This document shows positions 43,773 through 61,235 of a stretch of DNA of 64,000 nucleotides, piece by piece; the first letter of the stretch is position 1, and each line of letters begins with the position of its first letter. The notes beneath the pieces are model-generated. The model made no database searches. It was not told the DNA's origin and worked only from the letters and a program-made list of their open reading frames with translations. This stretch comes from Actinomadura xylanilytica (GTDB lineage Bacteria > Actinomycetota > Actinomycetes > Streptosporangiales > Streptosporangiaceae), in contig NZ_JASNWE010000001.1 of NCBI RefSeq assembly GCF_030283145.1, forward strand, positions 496,001 to 560,000, read 5' to 3'. The translations under genes and the position numbers were made by a program.

Positions 43773-44951
43773 CTACTTGATCGTCAGGGAGGACAGGTAG
43801 CCCCGCGCGTTGCGCGCGGTCTCCTCGACCGAGTCGCCGCCGAACTTCTCCAGCGCGGCGTCGGCCAGCACCAGCGCCACCATCGCCTCGGCGACCACGC
43901 CGGCGGCGGGCACCGCGGTGACGTCGCTGCGCTGGTTGATCGCCTTGGCGGGCTCGCCGGTCTTCACGTCGATGGTGTCGAGGCGGCGCGGCACGGTCGA
44001 GATCGGCTTCATCGCGGCGCGGACCCGGAGCGCCTCGCCGGTGGTCATGCCGCCCTCGACGCCGCCGGCCCGGTTGGTGCGGCGGCGGACGCCGTCCGGG
44101 GTGGCGTCGATCTCGTCGTGCGCGCGGGAGCCGGGGCGGCGCGCGGTGGTGAAGCCGTCGCCGAGCTCCACCCCCTTGATCGCCTGGATGCCCATCAGGA
44201 TCCCGGCGAGCCGGGCGTCGAGCCGCCGGTCCCAGTGCACGTGGCTGCCGAGGCCGGGCGGGAGCCCGTAGGCGAGGACCTCCACGACGCCGCCGATGGT
44301 GTCGCCGGCCCGCTTCAGCTCGTCGACGTGCGCGACCATCGCCGCGGACGCCGCGGCGTCGAAGCACCGCACCGGGCTGTCGTCGACGGCGGCGAGGTCG
44401 CCGGGGCCGGGCAGCAGCCCCTCGGGCGCCTCGATCTCGCCGAGCGCGATCACGTGGGAGAGCACGTCGACGTCGAGCGCCTGCTTCAGGAACGCCTTGG
44501 CGGCGGTGCCGAGCGCGACCCGGGCGGCGGTCTCGCGGGCGCTGGCCCGCTCCAGCACCGGGCGGGCGTCGTCGAAGCCGTACTTCTGCATGCCGACCAG
44601 GTCGGCGTGGCCGGGGCGCGGCTGCGACAGCGGCGCGTTGCGCGCCTGCGCGGCCAGCGTCTCGGCGTCGACCGGGTCGGCCGACATCACCGTCTCCCAT
44701 TTGGGCCACTCGGTGTTGCCGATCTGGATCGCGACCGGCCCGCCCTGGGTCACCCCGTGCCGGACCCCGCCGAGGATCGTCACCTGGTCCTGCTCGAACT
44801 TCATCCGGGCGCCCCGCCCATGCCCGAGCCGGCGGCGGCGCAGTTCCTCGGCGATGTCGCCCGAGGTCACGCGCACGCCGGCCGGCAGGCCCTCCACAAT
44901 CGCGGTGAGGGCCTGGCCATGGGACTCCCCCGCGGTCAACCAGCGCAGCAT
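43773..44951 (-). CDS. aroC: Chorismate synthase
   Basis: 392 aa FMN-dependent last step of the shikimate path. Family signatures are [43 protein letters not shown]-like [23 protein letters not shown] and [17 protein letters not shown] 44951 has AGGAT about 7 bp upstream; the longer frame to 44978 lacks family residues. First gene of the aro operon. Confidence 0.97.
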
Positions 44952-45021
44952 GGGGACGATCCTATTGACTCCGTGCACCCGCCGGGCACGTGTCCACCTT
45001 GTGAGAACCGGGCGACCGCCG

Positions 45022-47361
45022 TCACAGTGGCTTGATCACCTCAGCGGCGGCCCGCTGGGCGAGGGCGACACGCTCGGCGCCCGGCATGCGCTCGGACGGA
45101 TCCTTCGGAGCGAACGCCACTTCCACCAGCACGTTACGGACACGGAACACCACACGCCCCGGCGTCCCGTCCTCCACGTAAGCGGCGAACGCCTGCTCAC
45201 CCAGACCCGTCACGGCGCGGAAGTACTTCTCACCGCCTCCGCTGATCGGCTCCTCCGCCCGCGAGTTGAGGTGCAGCTTCAGGTAGGCCCGGGTCGCGGC
45301 CTGTACAGCCTCGTGCGACGACCGCCCCGGGAAGGGCGTCGCGACGACGCTCAGCGCCCGGTGCTCGGACTTCCACACGCATCCGGACGCCTCCGGCTTG
45401 TCGAGCGACCCCAGCGGACCTATATCCCTGGTCACGCTCACATCGGAGTCTGTCTCGGCCTTGCCCTTGACGATCTGTTCCACCATCCCCGTGGGGATCA
45501 GGGCGCATCCCCCGGGGAGCTTCGTCTTGGCAGGGGCGGCGCCCGGCGCCGGGGGCGCGGCGACCTTCGGGGACCGCACATGGGCTCCGAGGGCCCGCGC
45601 GGCGTCGGACGCCGCCCGCAGCACGGGCTTCATGTCCCCCACCCGCTCGAGGTCCAGTCCGTCGTCCTGGTACTCGACGCTGCCGACGGCGTTCCCGAAC
45701 CTAAAAACGATCTTCGTGTCGAGGCCGGTGACCAGCGCCACGGCCTCGTCGGCCAGGCCCGTGACCGGCCGCTGGCGGGTCTCCTCGGAGGCGGCGGGAA
45801 GCCGGTCGACCGCCCGCGCCGCGGGGGTGTTCTTGACCCAGGGCCCGCTCCGGGTGACCCGGTCGGCGATCCGGATCTCCTCATCGTTCAAGGTGCCGGA
45901 GGCCGTGGTCCCGCTTCCGGGCGGTGAGGCCGGTGAGGTCTCCTCCAGTTCCAGATGGAGCGAGACGTTGAGGGTGCGGCGGTTGCGCTCCCCCAGCCGC
46001 GTGGTCCATGCGCACGTCCCCTGGTCGCCGTTCTCGTTCATGTCGGCGTGCCCGACGACCGCGTCGACCGTGGCGGAGGCGATACCGCAGTTCGAGGGGA
46101 GCGAGGTGATGAGCGGACGGGCCGGGACGGGGTCGGGCGCCGCGGGCAGCGGGGCCCGCTCCGCCGGGACGGCCCGCAGCGCCTTCGCCGCCTCGGCGGC
46201 CACGGTGTAGGCGGCCCGGACGGCCCGGTCGCCGGACATGGCCGGTTCTCCGTTCTTGGTTCCCGAGTAGACGACCTCGACCACCACGTTCCGATCCCGG
46301 AAGACCACCCTCCCAGGTAGGTCGTCGGCGTCGTTGAGCGATCCGCCGAGTACGCCGAACGCCTGCTCCCCCGGGCCGGTCAGCGCATGGAACTCCTTCG
46401 GCTTGTCCAGGGCCGCCGATTGGTGCCCCTCTCGCGTCAGCCGGTGCCATTGCAGGAACCAGCGGGACGCCGCACGGGCGCCGTCACCCGGTTCCCGGTC
46501 CGGGACGGTGCCAACGGTGACCATGAGGGTCCGGCTCTGCCCCGATACGTCGAGCACCTGCCATTCGCACGAGTCGGTCCTCGCTCCGGACACTCCGTCC
46601 AGGAGCGTTCCGTTGCCACGGGAACGGAACGCCCCCCTGGCCACCTTGTCGAGCGTCCTCCCCGGAACGAGGTCGCAGGGACGCGGCACCCGCGTGATCG
46701 CCGGAGGACCCGGCGGCGGCGCGCTCGCCGGAACGGGCCGTGCGGGCAGCTTGAGCCCGGTGGCCACTTCCGACGCGGCCGTGAGCGCGCCCTTCATCGC
46801 GTCCCGCTCGGACATCGGCTGGGGGATGCGCTTCCCGGCGATCTCGCGCTGACCCCCGTACAGGATGGTCACCGGGGTGCCGCCGGCCTGGAAGACGACC
46901 TCGGCCACTCCATCGTGCCTGCGGACGGAGTACCGGGCGAGCGCCTGGTCGTCTCCGAGGCCCGCGAGGACCTTCGGCGGCCGGGGGCTCATCGCGAAGG
47001 CCGGGTCGGCGGTGGTGGTGGCCAGGATGCCGCTCATCGCGACGCCGTCGGTTCCGGCCGCGACTCTAAGCCGCCACTCGCCCCGGCGTGAGGAGTACCA
47101 GGAGCACTTTTCGAGCCGGTCTTGTCCGCCGGGCACCAGGGCGTCGACGGTGGCCTTGGACACCCCGCAGCCGCCCGTCATCGGCCCTCGGGCCGGCGAG
47201 ACTGGGTCGGACCGCACGGGCAGCGCGGCCAGAGCGCCCTCCGCGAGACCGCTCGGCTCGTCCGCGGAGAACCTGGCGACGACGAGCGTGATCACCAGGA
47301 GCAGCGCGGCTGCTCCGGCGACGGCCGCAGTGAGGCGGCGGGCCTTCGGCGGGAGGGGCAT
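45022..47361 (-). CDS. Membrane-anchored protein of four DUF3558-like repeats
   Basis: 779 aa. One signal-anchor helix (residues 11-30), then four homologous units. Each begins with a Cys near a Pro-rich linker and has a second Cys in a Cys-x-Trp motif: C65/C86 (CSW), C229/C265 (CEW), C425/C450 (CAW), C619/C661 (CVW). Each continues with a GLG-D/E-QA turn ([24 protein letters not shown]) and a strand such as [14 protein letters not shown]. Single-domain DUF3558 lipoproteins share this layout; four in one chain is unusual. Probably faces the cell exterior. No lipobox is seen. Function unknown. Confidence 0.75.
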
Positions 47362-47462
47362 GGACGCTCCGTGGGAGGAGATCGGACGGTCATCCGGCTA
47401 TGACACGCCCAGCCAGGTGAAAGTTCGTCCGTTCCGATCACGGCCCCGGGTCCCGGGCGGGA

Positions 47463-48083
47463 TCACCCTCCGGACTGCGGCTCGTCCCACGACTCGTAGC
47501 GGACGAGGTCGCCGAAGGGTTTGCGGAGGGTGCGCAGGCGGGCGGCATCGGTGCCGTCCTCCGCGCCGGGCTCGGGGTGGCCGAGGGTGATCAGGCCGAC
47601 CACCGCCACCTCGTCCGGGAGGCCGACCAGCTTCTTCAGCTCCTCGGACCGGCGGACGGTGGAGAAGCCGGTGACCAGGCCGGCGTCGATCGCGGCGAGC
47701 TGGATCAGGGTCAGCAGCGCGCCGGCGTCAACCCACCAGTACGGCGCGGGCCAGAGCATCTCCTCGCCGTCCACCAGCTTGTCGGGCTTGGTGTAGCGCT
47801 CGTGGTAGGCGTCCTCGCTGACGCCGAGCACCATGAGGACGGGCGCGACCGAGAGCCAGCGGGGCAGGCCCCGCTGCACGTACCAGTCCTCCTCGGCGAT
47901 CTCGGCGATCCGCTCGCGGGTCGCGGGCCCGGTGACCACGAGGAGGCGGTGGCCCTGGCTGAAGCCCGCGCTCGGCGCCCGCCGGACGAGCCGGGCGATC
48001 GCCGCGACGGTCTCGGGGTCGACCGGGTCCGCGCTGTAGCGGCGCACCATCCGGCGCCGCCGCAGTACCTCGCTGAAGTCCAT
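47463..48083 (-). CDS. Nitroreductase family flavoprotein
   Basis: 206 aa FMN enzyme. Opening SEVLRRRRMVRRYSADPVDPE binds FMN, RRAPSAGFSQGHRLLVV follows, and VDAGALLTLIQLAAIDAGLV is the dimer helix. Such proteins reduce or dehydrogenate varied substrates, including peptide heterocycles in RiPP pathways. ATG 48083 has AGGAAGGA 6 bp upstream. Last gene of the lanM operon, 17 bp after the sulfotransferase. Confidence 0.88.
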   Translation of the reverse strand: MDFSEVLRRRRMVRRYSADPVDPETVAAIARLVRRAPSAGFSQGHRLLVVTGPATRERIAEIAEEDWYVQRGLPRWLSVAPVLMVLGVSEDAYHERYTKPDKLVDGEEMLWPAPYWWVDAGALLTLIQLAAIDAGLVTGFSTVRRSEELKKLVGLPDEVAVVGLITLGHPEPGAEDGTDAARLRTLRKPFGDLVRYESWDEPQSGG

Positions 48084-48100
48084 CGGGTCCTTCCTGTCGG

Positions 48101-49015
48101 TCACGGCCCGTGGGGGGCCGGGGTGAGCGGGTAGCCGTAGCGGGCCAGGAGCGGGGCGGCGATCACGGTGGCGAGCGCGCGGTCGCGGCGCGGCTGGGTG
48201 CGGACCCACGCGTCGTCGGCGCGGACGCGGACGGGGCCGCGGTGCAGCCGGTCGGGGTTGCCGGTGACGGTGTGGTTGACGCCGAGGTCGGCGACGCCGT
48301 CGGCGCCGACGGGCGGGTCGCCGTCCAGCCCGGCCCGCTCCATCACCCGGCGCAGCTCGTCCCGGGGCCGCGCGGCGAAGTCCTCGTAGCGGAGCCGCTG
48401 GTAGCGGGACGGGAACGCGCGGCCGACCCGCTCGGACGCCAGGTTGAACCCGACCCAGTAGCCGGTGCTGCGCACCGGGCCCATCGGCGGGATGTACCGC
48501 TTGGCGCGCCGCCACGACTCGGCGGTGGCCCGCGGATCGCGGACCACGTGCAGGATCCGGGCGTCGATGCCGGGCGCCCCGCACAGCGCCGCGGCCTCGG
48601 CGGGGAACTTCCCGGTGTCGATGATGAGCCGGGCGCCCGACTCCTCGGCGATCGCGCCGTACAGCCGGACCAGGTCGCCGACGGCCGGGTGCGGGGCGGC
48701 GGCCCCGCGGGCCTCGGCCAGCCTGCGGCCCGTGTGCCGGGTGCGCAGCGCGGCCTGCTGCCGCCGGACGGCGCGTTCGGCGTGCGGGGCGGGCTCGTCG
48801 CCGGCGAGCCGGTCGAGCACCCCGGTCCACAGCGGGCACGCGTCGACGTCCCGGCCGCATCCGCACTGGGTGTTGGTGCCGCGGCCGAGGACGCCGTTGG
48901 TCCACAGGTAGCGCAGCTCGCCGGTGTGCAGCGCGCCGTCCACCTCGCCCAGCAGGTTGCCGAGCAGCGTGGTCCCGCTGCGGCACCAGCCGGTGACGTA
49001 CAGGACGCGGATCAC
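48101..49015 (-). CDS. Sulfotransferase
   Basis: 304 aa PAPS-dependent family. The 5'-phosphosulfate loop is VTGWCRSGTTLLGNLLGE near 7-24, the 3'-phosphate site VVRDPRATAESWRRAKR near 157. A Cys cluster NTQCGCGRDVDACPLW lies near 48-63. Predicted to sulfate a small molecule or peptide made by this cluster. GTG 49015 overlaps the aminotransferase stop (GTGA). Confidence 0.9.
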   Translation of the reverse strand: MIRVLYVTGWCRSGTTLLGNLLGEVDGALHTGELRYLWTNGVLGRGTNTQCGCGRDVDACPLWTGVLDRLAGDEPAPHAERAVRRQQAALRTRHTGRRLAEARGAAAPHPAVGDLVRLYGAIAEESGARLIIDTGKFPAEAAALCGAPGIDARILHVVRDPRATAESWRRAKRYIPPMGPVRSTGYWVGFNLASERVGRAFPSRYQRLRYEDFAARPRDELRRVMERAGLDGDPPVGADGVADLGVNHTVTGNPDRLHRGPVRVRADDAWVRTQPRRDRALATVIAAPLLARYGYPLTPAPHGP

Positions 49016-50286
49016 CGCGGCCGTCCGGACCGGGCCCCCATCACCTTGCCGACGGCGCGGACGAGCTGGTCGCGGTCGCGTTCGGTCAGGTTCGCCGACA
49101 GCGGGATGTCGACCGACTCGTCGAGCCGCGCGGCGGTGACGGGGAACTCCGCGCGGGCCCGGTCGGCGTCGGGGAACAGGAAGCGCCAGTTCCAGAAGGC
49201 GCGGACGTTGGTGTCGCCGGGATCGCCGAGCGCGCGCGCGTCGATGCCCTCGGCGCGGAGCGCGGCGGCCGTCCAGGCGGACGCGCGGGCGTCCGCGCCG
49301 GGGATCCGGAACACCAGCGCCTCGCCCAGGTAGGCATGGTCGTCCACGGGACGGCGCAGCGCGATGCCCGGGACACCGGCGAGCCGCTCGGCCACGTCGT
49401 CGTAGTTGCGGTGGTGGGCGGCCAGCCGCTCGGGCAGCCGGCGCAGCATCGAGCGGGCCAGCGCGGCGCGGATCTCGTCCATCCGCAGCCCGAAGATCGG
49501 CATGGCCAGGTCGTCGACGGGCGGCGGCCGGCCGTCGTAGTGCCGCGCCATCCGGCCTTCATAGGCGCCGGAGTAGACGACCGCGCGGGCGTGAACGTCC
49601 GCGTCGCCGGTCACCAGGAAGCCGCCCTCGCCGGTGTTGAGCGACTTGTCGGACTGGGTGCTGAACGCGCCGACGGCGCCGAACGTGCCGAGCGGGCGTC
49701 CGCGCAGGCTCGCGCCGAGCGCGGGCACCGCGTCCTCGACCACCGGCACGCCGTGCTCGCGGGCGACCGCGCAGACCGCGTCCATGTCGGAGGCGAACCC
49801 GCGCATGTGCACCACGACGATCGCCCGCACCTCCGGGGTGAGGCGGCGCCGCAGGTCGTCGACGTCCAGGTGCAGGTCCTCGTCGCACTCGACGAACAGC
49901 GGGCGGTGCCCGGCGAGCAGCACGGCGCTCGGCGTGGCCGCGAACGTGAACGCCGGGCAGGCGACCAGCGACCCGGGCGGCAGGTCGAGCGCGAGCAGCC
50001 CGAGCGCGATGGCGGTGGTGCCGCTGGCGCAGGTCAGGGCGTGCGGGGAGGAGAAGAACGCGCACAGGTCGCGTTCGAGCCGGCCCGTCTGCGTCTCGGC
50101 GTACGGGCGGTGGTCGTAGCGGAAGTACAGGCGGGACCGGATCGTCGCGAGGGCGGCGTCCAGGTCCTCGTCGTCGATGAAGACGTCGCCTTTGTCGTAG
50201 GTGGGCCAAGGGTCGGTGCGGACCGGCTCGGCGCCGTCGATGGCGAGCAGGCCGGGCTGCACTCCGGGCTGGACGTCAACGGTCAT
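49012..50286 (-). CDS. DegT/DnrJ/EryC1 family aminotransferase
   Basis: 424 aa PLP enzyme of fold type I. The PLP-stacking and phosphate residues sit in ALTCASGTTAIALGLLAL, the Asp in VPVVEDAVPALGAS, and the Schiff-base Lys in STQSDKSLNTGEGGFLV near 222. The family makes amino sugars and, in some clusters, aminated cyclitols or other ketones. No sugar-nucleotide genes are nearby, so the substrate may be different. GTG or ATG start at 50286, 33 bp after lanM. Confidence 0.9.
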   Translation of the reverse strand: MTVDVQPGVQPGLLAIDGAEPVRTDPWPTYDKGDVFIDDEDLDAALATIRSRLYFRYDHRPYAETQTGRLERDLCAFFSSPHALTCASGTTAIALGLLALDLPPGSLVACPAFTFAATPSAVLLAGHRPLFVECDEDLHLDVDDLRRRLTPEVRAIVVVHMRGFASDMDAVCAVAREHGVPVVEDAVPALGASLRGRPLGTFGAVGAFSTQSDKSLNTGEGGFLVTGDADVHARAVVYSGAYEGRMARHYDGRPPPVDDLAMPIFGLRMDEIRAALARSMLRRLPERLAAHHRNYDDVAERLAGVPGIALRRPVDDHAYLGEALVFRIPGADARASAWTAAALRAEGIDARALGDPGDTNVRAFWNWRFLFPDADRARAEFPVTAARLDESVDIPLSANLTERDRDQLVRAVGKVMGARSGRPR

Positions 50287-50319: not shown

Positions 50320-53283
50320 TCAGGGGCGTCCGCGCGGGGGCGCCAGCACGAGGACGGACGGCACGACGTCCGGCCGGGCCGATCGCAGCAGCCCGTACCC
50401 CACGCCGGCGAGGCCGGCCAGTAGTCCGGGCGCGGGCGCCGGCAGAGCGGTACGCCAGGGACCCGCCGGGCGGCTGGATGCGGGGGTGCTCACCAGGGGG
50501 GCGTCCGCCAGGGAGCCGTCCAAGGCGGTGAGCAGTTCGAGGTGGCCGGACGTGCCGTGGCAGAGCGAGTCGTCCAGCGGCGGCGGGTCGTTCCGTACGA
50601 GCACGGCGAGTTCTTCCAGTGACCGCTCCAGACGTTGCCGTACGGGGATGGACTCGTAGACCGGGCCGTCGCGCAGCTCCAGGCGTGCGAGAGCGGACCC
50701 GGTCGCGCCCTGGCACCAGCCCGTGTCGGTGCCCGGACTCTCCTCGGCGGCGACCAGTGCCCGCGCGCGGGACGCATATCGGGCATCCGGAGCGAGCGCG
50801 TGCAGGCGGGCCAGGGCGACCGCCGCGCCGGACGCGCCGTAGCCGAAGCCCGGCTCGGTGAGGTCGGCCTCCAGCAGTCGCTCGGCGGCGGTCCGCGCCA
50901 CGTCCAGGGCGCGCGCGCTGGGAAGCGCGGCGTGCAGGGCGAGCGCGGAGAGCAGGGTTCCGGCAGCGCCTTCGAGGACGTCCGGTGCGGCGGCGGGCGG
51001 CGGCGGGGTCAGCAGCGCGTCGCGGGCGAACTCGGCGAGGCCGGGCCGGCCGTGGACGGCGGCGGCATGGGCCAGGTGGTAGACGGCGCCGGGCCCGCCC
51101 TCCAGTCCGGGCCGCCGGGACGCGGGCAACCAGGCCGCCTCGCGGCAGCGGTGCACGACCTCCTCGGCGACGCGCACCGCCAGGTCCCGGGCCCAGGCGT
51201 CGGGGACGGCGGCGGCCAGGTATGAGAGGAACAGCCCGATCCCGGGCAGCCCGCCGTAGAGGTCGAGCCCTGCGGGCGCGAGCCGGCGGGACCCGGCGTC
51301 GACGACCTCGACCGTGACCCATCCGATCCGGTCACCGGCGCGAACGGCGGTCTCGTCCAGCCGCCGGGCGATCCGGACCGCCTCGTCCAGCGCCGTCCCG
51401 CCGCCCGTGGTCGGGCGGGGGCCGGGGGCCGGAGCGGGCCGCGGGGTGGGGTGCGGGGCGTCCTCCAGGACGGAGAGGCTCGCGTCGATGACGTCCGTCT
51501 GGGCCGCCAGGTCGTCCGGCCCCATCTCCGCGAGGCGTGCGGCGATCTCCTCCAGCGGCGAGACCGTGAGGACGCCGGGCAGGCGGGTGCCGTCCTCGAG
51601 CCACACGTCGTGGTGCCCCGGGCGGATCTCGAAGACCGGGACCTCGCCGCGCCACAGCGCCGCCTTCTCGGCCGCCACCAGCGCGTCGCGGTGCGGCACG
51701 CCCGGCCAGCCCGCCGCCAGCCGGTCCAGGCCGCGTTCGCGGGCGGCGGCGTCGCGGAGCGCGTCCGGCCGCCAGCTCTCCAGCAGGAGCCTGACGTAGA
51801 GGAACGTCGAAAGCTGGATCAGCCGGACCTGCACGTCCGCGCAGCCGTCCAGCGGCCCGCCCCGCGCGAGCAGGCCGGGTCCCGTCGCGGCGAGGCGCCG
51901 GTAGGCGAAGGTGTACCCGGCGACGAGGTCGTCGCGGTGCCGGCGCGGATCGGCGGTGCTCCCGTCCGGCAGGCGGAGCCGCCCGGCGGGCGGCGGGACC
52001 GTCCGGTACCCGAGGCCGACCCGCATCCGGTCGGTGCCCGGGTCCTCGACGATCGGCGTCGGGATGAGCGATCGGCGGACGGCGGCGGTGCCGAGCGGGC
52101 TGATGTCCACGCCGAACGGGCGCTCGGTGCCGACGTCGGGCATCACCAGCGGTCCGGGGAGCAGCCCGGTGCGGAGCACCGACCCGTCCAGCCGCCCGGC
52201 CGCGGGGTCGCCGAGCCGCGCCCGCTCCAGCATCGGCCGGGTCCGCTCGGTGTGGAAGAGCGCCTCGAGGTCGATCACCACCGGGTCGGCCCCGGCCGCG
52301 ATCACGTTGTCGGCGTGCAGGTCGTAGCCGTGCACGGCGTGGGTGAGCGCGAGCAGCGCGCCGATCCGCCAGAAGTAGCCGGGCAGCCCGGCCTCGGGGC
52401 ACGGCTCGGCGGTGATGTACTCGCTCCAGCCGCGGTCGCCCCGGTCCAGCAGCACGGGACGGCGCAGCGCGTGCGCGGGGGCGGCGGCGTTGAACCAGCC
52501 GAGCAGGCGGTCGAAGCACAGGTCGACGGCCAGGCTGCGCGGCTTGTAGACCACGGTCGCCCGCTCGAACCGGACGAGCGCGACGCTGCGCCCGCCCCGG
52601 TGGGTCTCGGCCGCGCCGAACGCCACGTCGACCAGCGGTCCGAGGGTCCGGCCGTCCCGGTCGTCGTGCGCGGCCCGGCCGTCCCGGTCGGCCCGGTCGT
52701 CCTGCGGGTCCGCCGTGCCGAAGGCGGCGGCGAGGGCGTCGAGGTCGGCGGTGAGGTCGCGGGCGAAGGCCAGGCGCGCGGCCACCCAGTCGTCGAGCAT
52801 CTCGACGACCTGCCGGGCCAGCACCGGGTAGGCGGCCCAGACCGCCAGCGCGGACGCGGGGTCGCGGAGGCCGCGGGTGAACGCCGCGTACCGCTCCTGC
52901 GGGGTCGCGCCGCCCTCCGGCCGGTCGCCCGCGCGGACGGCGGCGAGCTCGCGGGCCAGCGCGGGCTGGACCGCCATCGTGAGCCAGCCGAGCGGGGGCT
53001 CCCGGACGAGCACGCCCGGCAGGCCGTCCGGGCCGTCCGGGCCGAGGTCGGTGAGCAGGCATTCGCGGAGCGTGCGGCGCGCGTCGGCGATCAGCGGGCG
53101 GGCCGCCTCCAGCAGGCCGAGGTCGGCGGGGAGCCCGGCGCCGTCGGCGGGCGACTCCCAGGCGATGCGGAAGCGGCGGTGCCACTCCGGCTCGGCGGGT
53201 CCGGGCGCCTCCGCCCCCCGGACGGCGCGCTGCCAGGGGATGCCCGCGTCGCGGCGCGCGGGCGCCGTGGTCACCGGGCTCAT
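50320..53283 (-). CDS. lanM: Class II lanthipeptide synthetase LanM
   Basis: 987 aa bifunctional enzyme. The N-terminal half is the kinase-like dehydratase: RATVVYKPRSLAVDLCFDRL, THAVHGYDLHADNVIA and VVIDLEALFHTERTR are its lobe motifs; it phosphorylates Ser/Thr and eliminates phosphate. The C-terminal half is the LanC-like cyclase with zinc ligands C857 (GWCQGATG), C908 and H909 (CHGTSGH), all present, plus GLYGG-type LDLYGGLPGIGLFLSYL. ATG 53283 overlaps the stop of a 62-codon frame (ATGA). No classical Ser/Thr/Cys-rich precursor is obvious, which makes its substrate an open question. Confidence 0.93.
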   Translation of the reverse strand: MSPVTTAPARRDAGIPWQRAVRGAEAPGPAEPEWHRRFRIAWESPADGAGLPADLGLLEAARPLIADARRTLRECLLTDLGPDGPDGLPGVLVREPPLGWLTMAVQPALARELAAVRAGDRPEGGATPQERYAAFTRGLRDPASALAVWAAYPVLARQVVEMLDDWVAARLAFARDLTADLDALAAAFGTADPQDDRADRDGRAAHDDRDGRTLGPLVDVAFGAAETHRGGRSVALVRFERATVVYKPRSLAVDLCFDRLLGWFNAAAPAHALRRPVLLDRGDRGWSEYITAEPCPEAGLPGYFWRIGALLALTHAVHGYDLHADNVIAAGADPVVIDLEALFHTERTRPMLERARLGDPAAGRLDGSVLRTGLLPGPLVMPDVGTERPFGVDISPLGTAAVRRSLIPTPIVEDPGTDRMRVGLGYRTVPPPAGRLRLPDGSTADPRRHRDDLVAGYTFAYRRLAATGPGLLARGGPLDGCADVQVRLIQLSTFLYVRLLLESWRPDALRDAAARERGLDRLAAGWPGVPHRDALVAAEKAALWRGEVPVFEIRPGHHDVWLEDGTRLPGVLTVSPLEEIAARLAEMGPDDLAAQTDVIDASLSVLEDAPHPTPRPAPAPGPRPTTGGGTALDEAVRIARRLDETAVRAGDRIGWVTVEVVDAGSRRLAPAGLDLYGGLPGIGLFLSYLAAAVPDAWARDLAVRVAEEVVHRCREAAWLPASRRPGLEGGPGAVYHLAHAAAVHGRPGLAEFARDALLTPPPPAAAPDVLEGAAGTLLSALALHAALPSARALDVARTAAERLLEADLTEPGFGYGASGAAVALARLHALAPDARYASRARALVAAEESPGTDTGWCQGATGSALARLELRDGPVYESIPVRQRLERSLEELAVLVRNDPPPLDDSLCHGTSGHLELLTALDGSLADAPLVSTPASSRPAGPWRTALPAPAPGLLAGLAGVGYGLLRSARPDVVPSVLVLAPPRGRP

Positions 53284-53468
53284 CCGCGGTCGCCCGGAGC
53301 CTCGGTCCCGGCGGTCCCGGCCGCGGCGGTCCCGGCCGCGCGGGCGGCGCGACGCGGGCAGTGGGGCGCGGGACGGTCCGCGGGACGGGAGCCCGTTCCG
53401 AGTACCTCGTCCAACACCGGGTCCACCCATTCGTCGCCGTCATTATCCAGATGCGGCACGTCCACCAC
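53280..53468 (-). CDS. Small acidic peptide coupled to lanM, possible precursor
   Basis: 62 codons from GTG 53468; GTG 53459 is better placed, 8 bp after GAGG, giving 59. The stop overlaps the lanM start (ATGA). The first half is acidic (VPHLDNDGDEWVDPVLDEVLG); the second is Ala/Pro/Arg/Gly-rich with one Cys in PAPHCPRRAARAA and Thr/Ser in GTGS before it, enough for one thioether ring. Third-base GC is high, in keeping with real coding. It could be a lanthipeptide precursor, a leader acting in trans or a cargo/adaptor. I do not recognise the family. Confidence 0.5.
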   Translation of the reverse strand: MVDVPHLDNDGDEWVDPVLDEVLGTGSRPADRPAPHCPRRAARAAGTAAAGTAGTEAPGDRG

Positions 53469-53664
53469 CTCGAACGGGAAGAAGTCGATCGCAGGGCCGT
53501 TCTACCATGATCCATTTTTTCGGACAAGATTCCGGGGGGACCCTTTTCTTCGGGCCGCACATTGCTTACTCTCCAACAGCGAGGTGCAAGATCGGCATCA
53601 CGTGAATATCGGCCGGCCCGAGATCCGGGACGGACGCCGCAAGCTTGGCTGATGGGAGTTCTGC
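53469..53664. promoter_or_regulatory. AT-richer divergent promoter region of the cluster
   Basis: The gap between the lanM operon and the shell protein gene includes ATTTTTT (53513-53519), CCCTTTTCTT and TTGCTTACT, clearly AT-richer than its surroundings. Promoters for both directions probably lie here; I cannot fix -35/-10 boxes. A 39-codon minus-strand frame with a Shine-Dalgarno (53443-53562) also lies inside. Confidence 0.45.
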
Positions 53665-54574: not shown

Positions 54575-54601
54575 CCGGAGTCCCGACCGGCGGGACTCCG
54601 G
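54575..54601 (+). terminator. Hairpin after the shell protein gene
   Basis: CCGGAGTCCCG (54575-54585) and CGGGACTCCGG (54591-54601) form a perfect 11-bp stem with a 5-nt loop, 37 bp after the stop. It may be a partial terminator or RNA-end stabiliser, since three further frames follow at once. Confidence 0.65.
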
Positions 54602-54626
54602 ATCCGTCACAACGTGGAGGTGAGCC

Positions 54627-54647
54627 ATGACCACCCCTCCGTGGTAA
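54627..54647 (+). CDS. Hexapeptide gene 1 (MTTPPW)
   Basis: ATG, five codons, TAA: Met-Thr-Thr-Pro-Pro-Trp. GGAGGTGA (54616-54623) is a near-perfect Shine-Dalgarno, 6 bp from GGAGG to ATG. It shares Thr3, a C-terminal Trp6 and the ribosome site with two neighbours. Too small for gene finders. No gene follows on this strand, so a leader-peptide role is unlikely. Candidate minimal RiPP precursor. Confidence 0.7.
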   Translation: MTTPPW

Positions 54648-54693
54648 ACCCGCCGTGGCCATCGGCACCTGCGACGAGTTCGGAGGTGAACGC

Positions 54694-54714
54694 ATGCGCA
54701 CGAACACGTGGTAA
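54694..54714 (+). CDS. Hexapeptide gene 2 (MRTNTW)
   Basis: Met-Arg-Thr-Asn-Thr-Trp then TAA. GGAGGTGAA begins at 54682, 7 bp from GGAGG to ATG. Second of three frames with the pattern M-x-T-x-x-W, 46 bp after the first. It starts MRT like the third. Confidence 0.7.
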   Translation: MRTNTW

Positions 54715-54763
54715 ACCATCGCCCGCATAATGCGGATCATCCGACCCCCGTGGAGGTGGACAA

Positions 54764-54784
54764 ATGCGCACGATGCCTTGGTGA
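54764..54784 (+). CDS. Hexapeptide gene 3 (MRTMPW)
   Basis: Met-Arg-Thr-Met-Pro-Trp then TGA. GGAGGTGGA begins at 54752, 7 bp from GGAGG to ATG; the preceding CGTGGAGGTG is identical to that of gene 1. Third M-x-T-x-x-W frame, 49 bp after the second. Downstream are only a short gap and a strong terminator. Confidence 0.7.
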   Translation: MRTMPW

Positions 54785-54987: not shown

Positions 54988-56532
54988 TCAGTCCTCGTCC
55001 ACGGCTTCGCCGGCCCGCTCGGCGGCGTCCCGGCCGGCGTCATGGCCGGGCTCCCCGGCGGCGCGTCCGCCGGGTGCGGACGGGATGGGAGAGGCCGCGC
55101 CCGCGAGGGCCGTGGCCACCAGGAAGGCGGCCAGGCCCGCCCAGGCGACGCGGAACGCGCCCTCCGCCGGGTCGTGCAGCACCGCCGCCAGCGCGCCGAT
55201 CCCGACCGCCGCCCCGGCGGACCGGGACAGCATGACGAGCGCGCTGCCGCTCCCGAACCGGTCCGGCGGGACCTCGGCCATCGCGAGCGGCCCGATCGCC
55301 ACCGACGCGGCCGCCATCCCGGCGGTGCCGACGACCAGCGCGGGCAGCAGCACGACGGCGTACCCGTCCGCGCCGGTGAGCGGCCCGGCGAGCAGCGGCC
55401 AGCACCAGCCCGCCGCGCCGACCAGCCCGCCCGCGACGATGATCCGCCTCGAGCCCACCCGGCGGACCAGCGGGCCGCTGCCCCAGGAGACGACGGCGGA
55501 CGTCAGGGGCCCGGGGGTGAGGGCCGCCCCGGCGGCCAGCGCCGAGTACCCCCAGCGCTCGGTCAGGAACAGCGCAACGCAGAGCACGACCGCGAACTGC
55601 GTGACGCTCAGCAGGGCCATCGCCGCGTTTCCCGCCGCGGTCGGGCCCGCCCTCAGCAGCGTGAAGTCGGCGGCCGGACGCGGATGCCGCAGCGACCTGC
55701 GCACGCCCCAGGCGGTGAGCGCCAGGCCCGCGCCGAGCGGGCCGAGGACGCCGCCGTCCGTCCAGCCCCGGCCGGGGCCCTCCACCAGGCCGAGGACCAG
55801 CGCGGCGATACCGCCCGCGAGCAGGACGATCCCGATGAGGTCGGGCAGCCCCCGGCCCCCGGTCCCCGTCCCGGCCCCCGGGCCCGCGCCGCCCGCTCCG
55901 CCGCGGGCGGGGGCGCCGGACCGGATGCCGAGCGCGCCGCACGCCAGCGCGAGCGCGCCGAGCGGCAGGTTGATCAGGAAGATCCAGCGCCAGCCGCCGA
56001 GGGCCAGCAGTGCCGAGCCGAGTGCGGGCCCGCTCGCGCCGGCCACCCCGCCGACCGCGCCGAGCAGCCCGAACACGTGGCTCGGCCGGCCGGGGAACTC
56101 GCTCAGCCCGACCGAGATCGCCTGCGCCACCACCGCGCCGCCGCCCACGGCCTGGAGCATCCGGGCCAGCACCAGCCCGAGCGGCCCCGGGGCCAGCGCG
56201 CAGGCGAGCGAGCCCGCGGTGAACACCGCCAGCCCGCCGAGGAAGATCCGCCTGGCGCCGAGCCGGTCGGCCAGGCCGCCCGCGGGCAGCAGCACCGCGG
56301 CGAACACCACGGTGTACCCGGTGATCGTCCAGGACAGCCCGGCCAGCGTGCTGCCGGGGAAGGCGCGCAGCAGCCGCGGGATCGCCACGCTCACGATGTT
56401 GTAGTCGATCACCGCCATCCCGTTGGCGAGGATCACCGAGGCGAGCGCCAGGGCCCGCCGCCGCCGCGCGGCGCCGGGCCCGCCCCGGCCGGGTGATCCG
56501 GCCGGGGCGGACGGTGCGGCGCCGGCGCTCAC
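54988..56532 (-). CDS. MFS drug/metabolite exporter (DHA2 type)
   Basis: 514 aa with about 14 membrane helices. Opening helix ILANGMAVIDYNIVSVAIPRLL has the DHA2 D-x-x-I-V-x-V-A pattern. GGLADRLGARRIFLGGLAVF is motif A and LLGAVGGVAGASGPALGSALL motif C. Proton-driven export of the cluster's product is the natural guess. GTG 56532 overlaps the ligase stop (GTGA). The long frame upstream lies within the ligase and is shadow. Confidence 0.92.
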   Translation of the reverse strand: MSAGAAPSAPAGSPGRGGPGAARRRRALALASVILANGMAVIDYNIVSVAIPRLLRAFPGSTLAGLSWTITGYTVVFAAVLLPAGGLADRLGARRIFLGGLAVFTAGSLACALAPGPLGLVLARMLQAVGGGAVVAQAISVGLSEFPGRPSHVFGLLGAVGGVAGASGPALGSALLALGGWRWIFLINLPLGALALACGALGIRSGAPARGGAGGAGPGAGTGTGGRGLPDLIGIVLLAGGIAALVLGLVEGPGRGWTDGGVLGPLGAGLALTAWGVRRSLRHPRPAADFTLLRAGPTAAGNAAMALLSVTQFAVVLCVALFLTERWGYSALAAGAALTPGPLTSAVVSWGSGPLVRRVGSRRIIVAGGLVGAAGWCWPLLAGPLTGADGYAVVLLPALVVGTAGMAAASVAIGPLAMAEVPPDRFGSGSALVMLSRSAGAAVGIGALAAVLHDPAEGAFRVAWAGLAAFLVATALAGAASPIPSAPGGRAAGEPGHDAGRDAAERAGEAVDED

Positions 56533-58163
56533 CTCGGTCCGGCGGCGGCCTTCCGGGCGGCCAGGTCCTCCTCCAGCGCGCGCTTGCGGACCTTCCCGGT
56601 CGGCGTCTTGGGCAGCTCCGCGACGACCTCCAGGCGGTCCGGCTCGTACCCCGGCGTCATCCGGGCCTCGCGCACCAGCCGCTGGAGGTCCTCCAGCGCG
56701 GGCGGCTCGCCGTGCGGGACGACGACGGCGACCACGGTCTCGCCGAGCAGCGGCTCGGGCTCGCCCACCACGGCGACCTCGGCGACCCGGGGGTCGGCGC
56801 GCAGGATCTCCTCCACCGCGACGGCCGGGACGTGCAGCCCGCCCTTGTTGATCATGTCCTTGGTGCGGCCGATGATCTTGAGCCCGCCGCGGCCGTCCCG
56901 CCGGGCCAGGTCCCCGGTGACGAACCAGCCGTCGTGCAGCGCCGCGGCGAAGACCTCGTCGGCCCCCTCGTACCCGAGGCACAGGTTGGCGCCGCGGACC
57001 TCCAGCCGGCCGGGCTCCCCGTCCGCGACCTCGGCGCCGTCCTCGCCGACCAGCCGCATCTGCATCCACTCGACCGGGCGCCCGTCGCTGTGCGCCGCCC
57101 AGTCCACCGGGTCGTCGGCGCCGCTGATGGTCACGCCGCCGTTCTCGGTCATCCCCCACAGCGAGCGGACCGGGAGCCCGAACGTCGCGTAGAACCGGCC
57201 GGGCAGGCCGGGCGGGATCGGCGTCGACCCGGTGACCATGTGCCGCAGCGCGTGCCGCCGCGGGCGCTCGCGCTGCTCCTCGACGAGCTGGTCCAGGACC
57301 GCCGGGGTGAAGTACGCCGCGGTGATCCCGTACCGCTCGGCGAGGTCGAGGAAGTCGGCGGGCCGGTACGCGTCCGACCACACCGACGCCGCGCCGACCA
57401 GCAGCGGCGACAGGAGCCCGTACAGCCAGCCGCCCTGGCCGCCGATGATGCACGGCGTGGAGAGCACGTCGTCCGGGCCGAGCCCGAGCGGATCGGTGTA
57501 GGACCGCGACATCGCGTACAGCGTGTTGAACGAGTGCCGGACGCCCTTGGGCCTGCCGGTCGTCCCGGAGGTGTACATGATCTGGAAGACGTCGTCGCCG
57601 GCCGGCCGGCGGTCGCCGAGATCCACCGCGGGCGCCGACAGCAGGCTCTCGAACCCGACCGCTCCCTCCGGGACCTCGTCCCCGACGACGATCTGGTGGC
57701 GCAGGCCGGGCAGGCGCCCGCGCATGCCGGCGATGGCGGCGGCCACCTCCAGGCCGCGCACCGTCCCGAGCGACACGACCGCGCAGGCGCCGCTCTCGCG
57801 GAGGATCCACTCGGTGTCGGCCGCGCCGGTGGCGATGAAGTACGGCACCACCACGGCGCCCGCGCTCGCGCAGCCGAGCGCGAGCACGGTCGCCTGCCAC
57901 TGGTTGACCACCTGCATCGCCACCCGGTCGCCGGGGCCCACCCCCAGCGCCACCAGCCCGGAGGCGCAGCGGCGGGCGGCGTCGGCCAGCCCGGCGTAGG
58001 AGAGGGTGACGTCCGGGCCGTCACCGGTCTCCCAGAACCGGCTCACCACCGCGGTCCGGTCCGGCGTGTCCCGCGCCCACCGGTCGAGATCGTCGAGGAA
58101 CGTCTCGTCCCGCCACCAGCCGCGCTCCCGGAACAACGCCCGATCCTGGAAGTTTGTCACCAT
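56529..58163 (-). CDS. AMP-dependent acyl-CoA synthetase/ligase
   Basis: 544 aa ANL-family adenylating enzyme. The P-loop is MYTSGTTGRPKGV near 204, then MTENGGVTISG, DGWFVTGDLARRDGRGGLKIIGRTKDMI (hinge) and the catalytic Lys in ELPKTPTGKVRKRALEED near 525. It activates a carboxylate; there is no carrier protein gene in the window, so CoA or an amine may be the acceptor. ATG 58163; GlyRS ends 87 bp upstream and MFS overlaps downstream. Confidence 0.92.
   Translation of the reverse strand: MVTNFQDRALFRERGWWRDETFLDDLDRWARDTPDRTAVVSRFWETGDGPDVTLSYAGLADAARRCASGLVALGVGPGDRVAMQVVNQWQATVLALGCASAGAVVVPYFIATGAADTEWILRESGACAVVSLGTVRGLEVAAAIAGMRGRLPGLRHQIVVGDEVPEGAVGFESLLSAPAVDLGDRRPAGDDVFQIMYTSGTTGRPKGVRHSFNTLYAMSRSYTDPLGLGPDDVLSTPCIIGGQGGWLYGLLSPLLVGAASVWSDAYRPADFLDLAERYGITAAYFTPAVLDQLVEEQRERPRRHALRHMVTGSTPIPPGLPGRFYATFGLPVRSLWGMTENGGVTISGADDPVDWAAHSDGRPVEWMQMRLVGEDGAEVADGEPGRLEVRGANLCLGYEGADEVFAAALHDGWFVTGDLARRDGRGGLKIIGRTKDMINKGGLHVPAVAVEEILRADPRVAEVAVVGEPEPLLGETVVAVVVPHGEPPALEDLQRLVREARMTPGYEPDRLEVVAELPKTPTGKVRKRALEEDLAARKAAAGPR

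Positions 58164-58250: not shown

Positions 58251-61235
<2,985 letters not shown>

Follow-up and report, generated by a model that had tools for sequence, protein, structure and literature searches.

The smallest precursors reported are those of the biarylitides, which have five residues, a two-residue leader and genes of 18 bp (PMC13417212). The hexapeptide genes described here were found in a 64,000-nucleotide stretch of Actinomadura xylanilytica, the whole of which is referred to below as the window. They resemble the biarylitide system (bytA/bytO, with precursors such as MRYLH) in being minimal precursor genes with their own ribosome sites, in the Met-Arg start found in many biarylitide precursors and in the presence of several copies, as seen in some biarylitide strains; sulfotransferases are also encoded in some biarylitide clusters, as one is here (PMC13417212). 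However, biarylitide precursors have five residues with aromatic residues at positions 3 and 5, whereas the genes described here are 21 bp long and encode six residues with Thr at position 3. Biarylitide clusters also have a dedicated P450. As had already been stated for the window, no P450 was found: a regular expression for the heme-binding motif gave no match in the six frames of ten loci (the window and the related loci L001–L009), which have a LanM and an encapsulin instead. Membership of the biarylitides is thus excluded by residue 3, by length and by the lack of a P450 motif match.

In common with class II lanthipeptide clusters, the cluster encodes a LanM scoring above the family cut-off, with the dehydratase and zinc residues kept (Table 1). 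Class II precursors carry Ser/Thr and Cys, whereas the hexapeptides have no leader, no Ser and no Cys, and the LanC-type His of class II enzymes is replaced by Tyr in the LanMs of the cluster. A small ORF coupled to lanM, unlike the hexapeptides, does carry a conserved Thr and Cys, as class II precursors do. The third comparison is with the family 3 encapsulin clusters, which have been described as peptide-related and as containing pairs of sulfotransferase and short-chain dehydrogenase/reductase (SDR) genes (PMC8346489). The window shares with these a shell protein above the NF041188 cut-off, a sulfotransferase and a biosynthetic cluster. The main text of PMC8346489 holds no match for RiPP, lanthi or Actinomadura, and in the open-licence literature no description linking family 3 encapsulins with RiPPs and no match for MRTPPW were found.

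Table 1. Features of the encapsulin cluster in the window (positions of the window)
Feature	Position	Strand	Details
Nitroreductase-fold flavoenzyme	47463..48083	−	PF00881 on longer ORF
Sulfotransferase	48101..49015	−	PF13469
DegT/DnrJ/EryC1 aminotransferase	49012..50286	−	PF01041
LanM-type synthetase	50320..53283	−	TIGR03897 492 bits (longer ORF), cut-off 304
Small ORF, GTG start, 59 aa	53280..53459	−	Directly upstream of lanM; ATGA overlap
Family 3 encapsulin shell protein, 290 aa	53665..54537	+	NF041188 324 bits, cut-off 180; PF05065
Hexapeptide gene 1, MTTPPW	54627-54647 (with SD 54616..54647)	+	GGAGGTG 54616-54622; ATG ACC ACC CCT CCG TGG TAA
Hexapeptide gene 2, MRTNTW	54694-54714 (with SD 54682..54714)	+	GGAGGTG 54682-54688; ATG CGC ACG AAC ACG TGG TAA
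Hexapeptide gene 3, MRTMPW	54764-54784 (with SD 54752..54784)	+	GGAGGTG 54752-54758; ATG CGC ACG ATG CCT TGG TGA
MFS efflux transporter	54988..56436	−	PF07690 on longer ORF
AMP-forming acyl ligase	56529..58163	−	PF00501
Fused alpha-beta glycyl-tRNA synthetase	58251-61235	−	Borders cluster; also in six relatives

Hexapeptide genes behind the encapsulin gene

The three six-codon frames noted in the preliminary description are present on the + strand, each following GGAGGTG, with their start codons approximately 90, 157 and 227 nt behind the encapsulin stop codon. The spacing of 6–7 bp given there between ribosome site and ATG is correct when counted from GGAGG; from GGAGGTG it amounts to 4–5 nt. 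The frames had also been placed on the strand of the shell gene and beside lanM, of which the strand is right, lanM itself being on the opposite strand and on the far side of the shell gene.

When the window was simulated with a second-order Markov null model, none of 300 replicates held a frame of the type SD-M.T..W-stop or a tandem pair of similar micro-ORFs. Ribosome sites were scored by pairing with the tail of the 16S rRNA. The median over 27 copies from the window and its relatives, with three copies from genome G054 left out, was −16.4 kcal/mol, which was matched by 0 of 51 called genes of the window and 0 of 2000 random sites, and 20 of these 27 copies pair more strongly than the best called gene (−15.4), the gene calls being those of a simple in-house finder biased towards starts with an SD. 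The three copies of the window gave −14.4, −15.4 and −14.3 kcal/mol, values that 3, 1 and 3, respectively, of the 51 called genes match or surpass.

To place these genes among other family 3 encapsulin loci, the shell protein was scanned for in one genome per species, which gave 42 loci, all from close relatives (L012 and L013 are contigs of a single genome). All nine loci of the Actinomadura clade (L001–L009) have two or three SD-ATG-six-codon frames within 700 bp behind the shell gene. The other 33 loci, among them that of A. flavalba (L042), a more distant Actinomadura, lack them there. Scanning of the whole loci on both strands likewise confined tandem micro-ORF pairs to the window and L001–L009, with none in the 33 others. 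The comparison and alignment of other family 3 loci suggested in the preliminary description thus showed the frames to be conserved within this clade. When 65 genomes of the genus were searched for the pattern, 11 were positive, and a reversed control pattern gave no match; the positives were the genome of the window, nine matching L001–L009 by sequence and G054, the copies of which likewise sit behind a shell gene. At the level of the order, 345 genomes included 12 with a match, namely the same 11 and one with an isolated frame (G196). A class-wide scan gave 0 of 394, which is a weak negative, as the stricter pattern used there fails on the window's own copies. The hexapeptide clade is narrow, amounting to one genus.

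The 11 genomes hold 30 copies, two or three in each, all on the strand of the shell gene and behind a family 3 encapsulin gene, although many come from close relatives and the copies are therefore not independent. Met1, Thr3 and Trp6 are present in 30/30, so that the consensus first proposed for Thr3 and Trp6 is invariant; Arg2 is found in 29 and Pro5 in 27, while residue 4 is free and in most loci differs from copy to copy within a genome. The exceptions in the window are copy 1, which lacks Arg2, and copy 2, which lacks Pro5 and the peptide of which recurs identically in L009. With regard to codons, ATG and TGG are each used in all 30 copies. Codon 2 is CGC (26), CGT (3) or ACC (1), codon 3 is ACG (28), ACC (1) or ACT (1), encoding Thr throughout, and codon 5 is CCG (25), CCT (2), ACG (2) or CAG (1), whereas ten different codons occur at position 4, encoding Pro, Lys, Thr, Leu, Asn and Met. 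The stop is TGA in 22 copies and TAA in eight. Codons 2, 3, 4 and 5 and the stop all show silent changes. The last base of the stop carries 2 bits of column information, the next four bases 0.10–0.18 bits and the following 24 bases 0.06–0.88 bits. Because silent change occurs at fixed residues, the pattern points to a translated peptide rather than a DNA or RNA motif, and it is near certain from these comparisons that the three frames are translated genes of 21 bp. A fourth copy in L005 (11157–11177, encoding MRTTPG), located just 3′ of three good ones, has no SD-like site and appears to have decayed.

It is scarcely probable that the frames encode a signal peptide or regulatory leader peptides, or that they form a stable RNA element. 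A hairpin is predicted at 54575–54601, between the shell stop codon and the first hexapeptide gene (z −2.4, with 1 of 200 shuffles as good), and G+C-rich hairpins, predicted without a shuffle control, lie at the same place in other loci, as would suit such an element. Against this, the conservation is codon-like and drops at the stop codon, and no + strand gene was called downstream, every gene called between 54988 and the end of the window lying on the − strand. Attenuator leader peptides regulate a gene that follows on the same strand, and their dismissal in the preliminary description was sound in this respect; the strong terminator that it placed behind the hexapeptide genes is a G+C inverted repeat with no T run, where a terminator scan reported none. 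G+C-rich hairpins were also predicted, without a control, between copies 1 and 2 in L002 and L004.

In all 11 genomes the hexapeptides are encoded behind the shell gene and on the same strand, which, together with strong ribosome sites that suggest production in excess, could also indicate that they act on the shell (in assembly, at the pore or in cargo docking) and are not chemical precursors. This is improbable, considering that none is encoded after the shell gene in the 33 other family 3 loci and that residue 4 varies among the copies of a single genome in most loci. The N-terminus of the DegT protein of the window (...PVRTDPWPTY) contains RTxPW, and a link to the hexapeptides was considered and rejected as coincidence: variants of this motif occur in the DegT proteins of loci that have no hexapeptides, and it is lost in L002 (VRAEPW), which likewise speaks against an action on the shell.

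The LanM synthetase and its coupled small ORF

The LanM is full-length and was aligned to the solved CylM and LicM2 and to relatives. The kinase-like residues (YKPR or HKPR, DLHADN and [IV]DLE) and the zinc ligands (WCxG and CHG) are present. The cyclase acid His is replaced by Tyr in 12/12 cluster LanMs, that of draft genome G030 included; it is kept in all of the other LanM-like loci (18/18) in a comparison that covered the 30 best-matching loci of the genus. This His corresponds to H835 of CylM (PMC9934072), and the NisC replacements H212N and H212F retain zinc and give no cyclization (PMC7296275). The LanM looks like a dehydratase with its cyclase acid replaced, and a non-cyclizing dehydratase fits a Cys-free substrate with one invariant Thr.

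LanM and the nitroreductase were each found in eight of the nine hexapeptide relatives, whereas the 33 other loci gave neither; the ninth locus, L004, is cut off at its contig start and has its LanM on another contig. In G030, a draft of 510 contigs, LanM, DegT and part of the sulfotransferase are present, and the finding of no shell gene or hexapeptide pattern is uninformative, as the LanM contig apparently ends there. The lanM gene of L008 (6675–9538, − strand, genome G035) is split over two overlapping frames, which represents either sequencing error or decay.

The preliminary description overlooked a small ORF directly upstream of lanM which, with a conserved Thr and Cys, is a rival substrate or a partner of LanM. 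Its TGA overlaps the ATG of lanM, and it encodes the motif [FYW][TAV]DP[VI][LIV]D-x3-GTGxR, followed by PAPxCP. The Thr of GTG and the Cys of PAPxCP are conserved in 11 sequences, from the 11 genomes in which the stretch is present (the contig of G030 apparently ends before it), while the region 3′ of the Cys is variable and of low complexity. In two species (L002, from Actinomadura rupiterrae, and L084) the motif is part of the LanM chain itself, joined in frame by a long linker. A comparison of small ORFs across the cluster ranked this ORF first, with counterparts in seven other loci. The search for a canonical LanA elsewhere in the cluster was unproductive: the next ORF families were unsupported, many being other frames of the same stretch or of the hexapeptide region. 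A pair resembling TCTTGT...GTAGAAC, at 53459–53545 of the window (− strand), was seen by eye to recur before the small ORF in several relatives and is perhaps a promoter; a sigma-70 scan did not report it.

This ORF may represent an enzyme-held leader, a LanA precursor or a shell tag. That it is the true LanA, receiving one methyllanthionine from LanM while the hexapeptides do a separate job, is unlikely, even though the ORF lies directly upstream of lanM and the Thr and Cys of its motif are conserved in all 11 sequences collected. The cyclase acid His is lost in every one of the cluster LanMs, and the sequence past the Cys is variable and of low complexity. Furthermore, because of the ATGA coupling and the fusions to LanM, the evidence suggests a partner of the enzyme rather than a substrate made in excess.

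As for a shell tag, the motif was rejected as a cargo tag common to several enzymes. In a six-frame profile search it was found in the LanM clade, with weak and short matches elsewhere, and a regular expression run over protein ends gave one unrelated match, a weak test as it is blind to both LanM fusions, the gene finder having placed the start of the L002 LanM too far downstream. With respect to cargo-loading peptides of encapsulins, the N-terminal LanM motif is predicted to be disordered: an AlphaFold2 model of a fused LanM (20 rows, mean pLDDT 72.2) had residues 1–99 below 50 and the motif undocked, which neither supports nor excludes docking.

LanM enzymes normally require a leader, and a natural enzyme-held one is plausible by analogy with the engineered leader-LanM fusions LctCE and HalCE2, which modify leaderless cores (PMC5141572). 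As in these, attachment of a peptide to the N-terminus of LanM could make a leader on the substrate unnecessary, although LctCE and HalCE2 were built in the laboratory and the peptide here is natural, split or fused, and a leader only putatively. A tentative proposal is that the leader has moved from substrate to enzyme, such that the coupled or fused peptide would activate LanM and may dock it to the shell, the bare hexapeptides would be dehydrated at Thr3 and the cyclase would have been retired. As far as these sequence comparisons reach, what is new here is a cluster LanM with its cyclase His changed to Tyr and a conserved-motif ORF coupled or fused to it.

Gene content of the cluster

The nitroreductase (47463) and the acyl ligase (58163) mark the two ends of the cluster, which is followed by the fused glycyl-tRNA synthetase; upstream of it are cell-division, shikimate and other housekeeping genes. 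Approximately 2.5 kb (44951–47463) between the gene at 43773–44951 and the nitroreductase, containing an ORF of 779 aa with no Pfam match, are missing in relatives, in which the homologues of the flanking genes are nearly adjacent (e.g., L001). The nitroreductase resembles flavin enzymes of a wide range, which includes unnamed nitroreductases, BluB, iodotyrosine deiodinase and albonoursin synthase, and its predicted model is of low quality (mean pLDDT 65.6).

A sulfotransferase is encoded in 41 of the 42 related loci, the exception being L004, which is cut off by its contig. An SDR is found in 39/42, a weak 30% match on the other strand in L002 not being counted. Among the nine hexapeptide relatives, six have a clear SDR; none is clear in the window, L009 or L002, and L004 is cut off. 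In most family 3 loci an SDR accompanies the sulfotransferase as its pair; the window has none at the corresponding place, 48083–48101.

In L010–L013 a RimK-type ATP-grasp ligase lies directly behind the shell gene, the place taken by the hexapeptides in Actinomadura. The RimK of L010, used as query, gave no match in the window or L001–L009 (approximately 10 kb on each side, less for L001 and L004). Ribosomal hexapeptides may have replaced the ligase as a source of peptide in this clade.

Another use of the hexapeptides would be as scaffolds or carriers, on which a non-standard residue is built at Thr3 or Trp6 and from which peptidases release the building block. A comparable case is described in PMC13417212, where rufomycin pathways use the pentapeptide MRYLH to make nitrotyrosine. 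The cluster does encode an acyl ligase, a DegT protein and a sulfotransferase, and residue 4 is free while Thr3 and Trp6 are fixed. However, no NRPS is found among the cluster genes typed by Pfam, and no known step of the cluster requires a residue released in this way, so this use is considered quite unlikely.

Proposed route and its significance

We consider it reasonably probable that the leaderless M-R-T-x-P-W hexapeptides are RiPP precursors of the family 3 encapsulin cluster and that LanM acts on Thr3. Of the minimal RiPP precursor type first proposed, conserved and strongly initiated micro-genes within a biosynthetic cluster are observed, whereas their status as RiPP precursors is an inference. 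The conserved Thr and Cys of the small ORF count against this reading, as they may mark the true substrate of LanM. Also against it are the leader that a LanM normally requires, the pairing strength of the window's own three ribosome sites, which some called genes match or surpass, and the restriction of the clade to one genus.

In the proposed route, the putative precursors would be made from the near-perfect ribosome sites behind the encapsulin gene. The divergent LanM would phosphorylate Thr3 and eliminate the phosphate to give dehydrobutyrine, and no thioether ring would be expected from a Cys-free substrate and a cyclase domain deprived of its proton-donating His. The lanM-coupled small protein would substitute for the absent leader or dock LanM to the shell. 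Cleavage after Arg2 could possibly follow, leaving an N-terminal dehydrobutyrine that would convert to a 2-oxobutyryl group, a chemistry known from other lantibiotics. Later steps may include reduction by the SDR where one is present, sulfation by the sulfotransferase, oxidation by the flavoenzyme and export by the MFS pump. An order of steps that includes the SDR cannot be general, because a clear SDR is missing in the window, L009 and L002.

The hexapeptides most likely feed an undescribed class of modified peptides made with an unusual lanthipeptide enzyme. If this is true, their genes are among the smallest known protein-coding genes, the 18-bp biarylitide genes being called the smallest known in PMC13417212; they belong to a pathway other than that of the biarylitides, and their length is below what ordinary gene calling can pick up. 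A natural enzyme-held leader, if real, would explain how a LanM acts on leaderless peptides and could possibly serve as a tool for modifying short synthetic peptides. The family 3 encapsulins gain a small, defined and testable candidate substrate.
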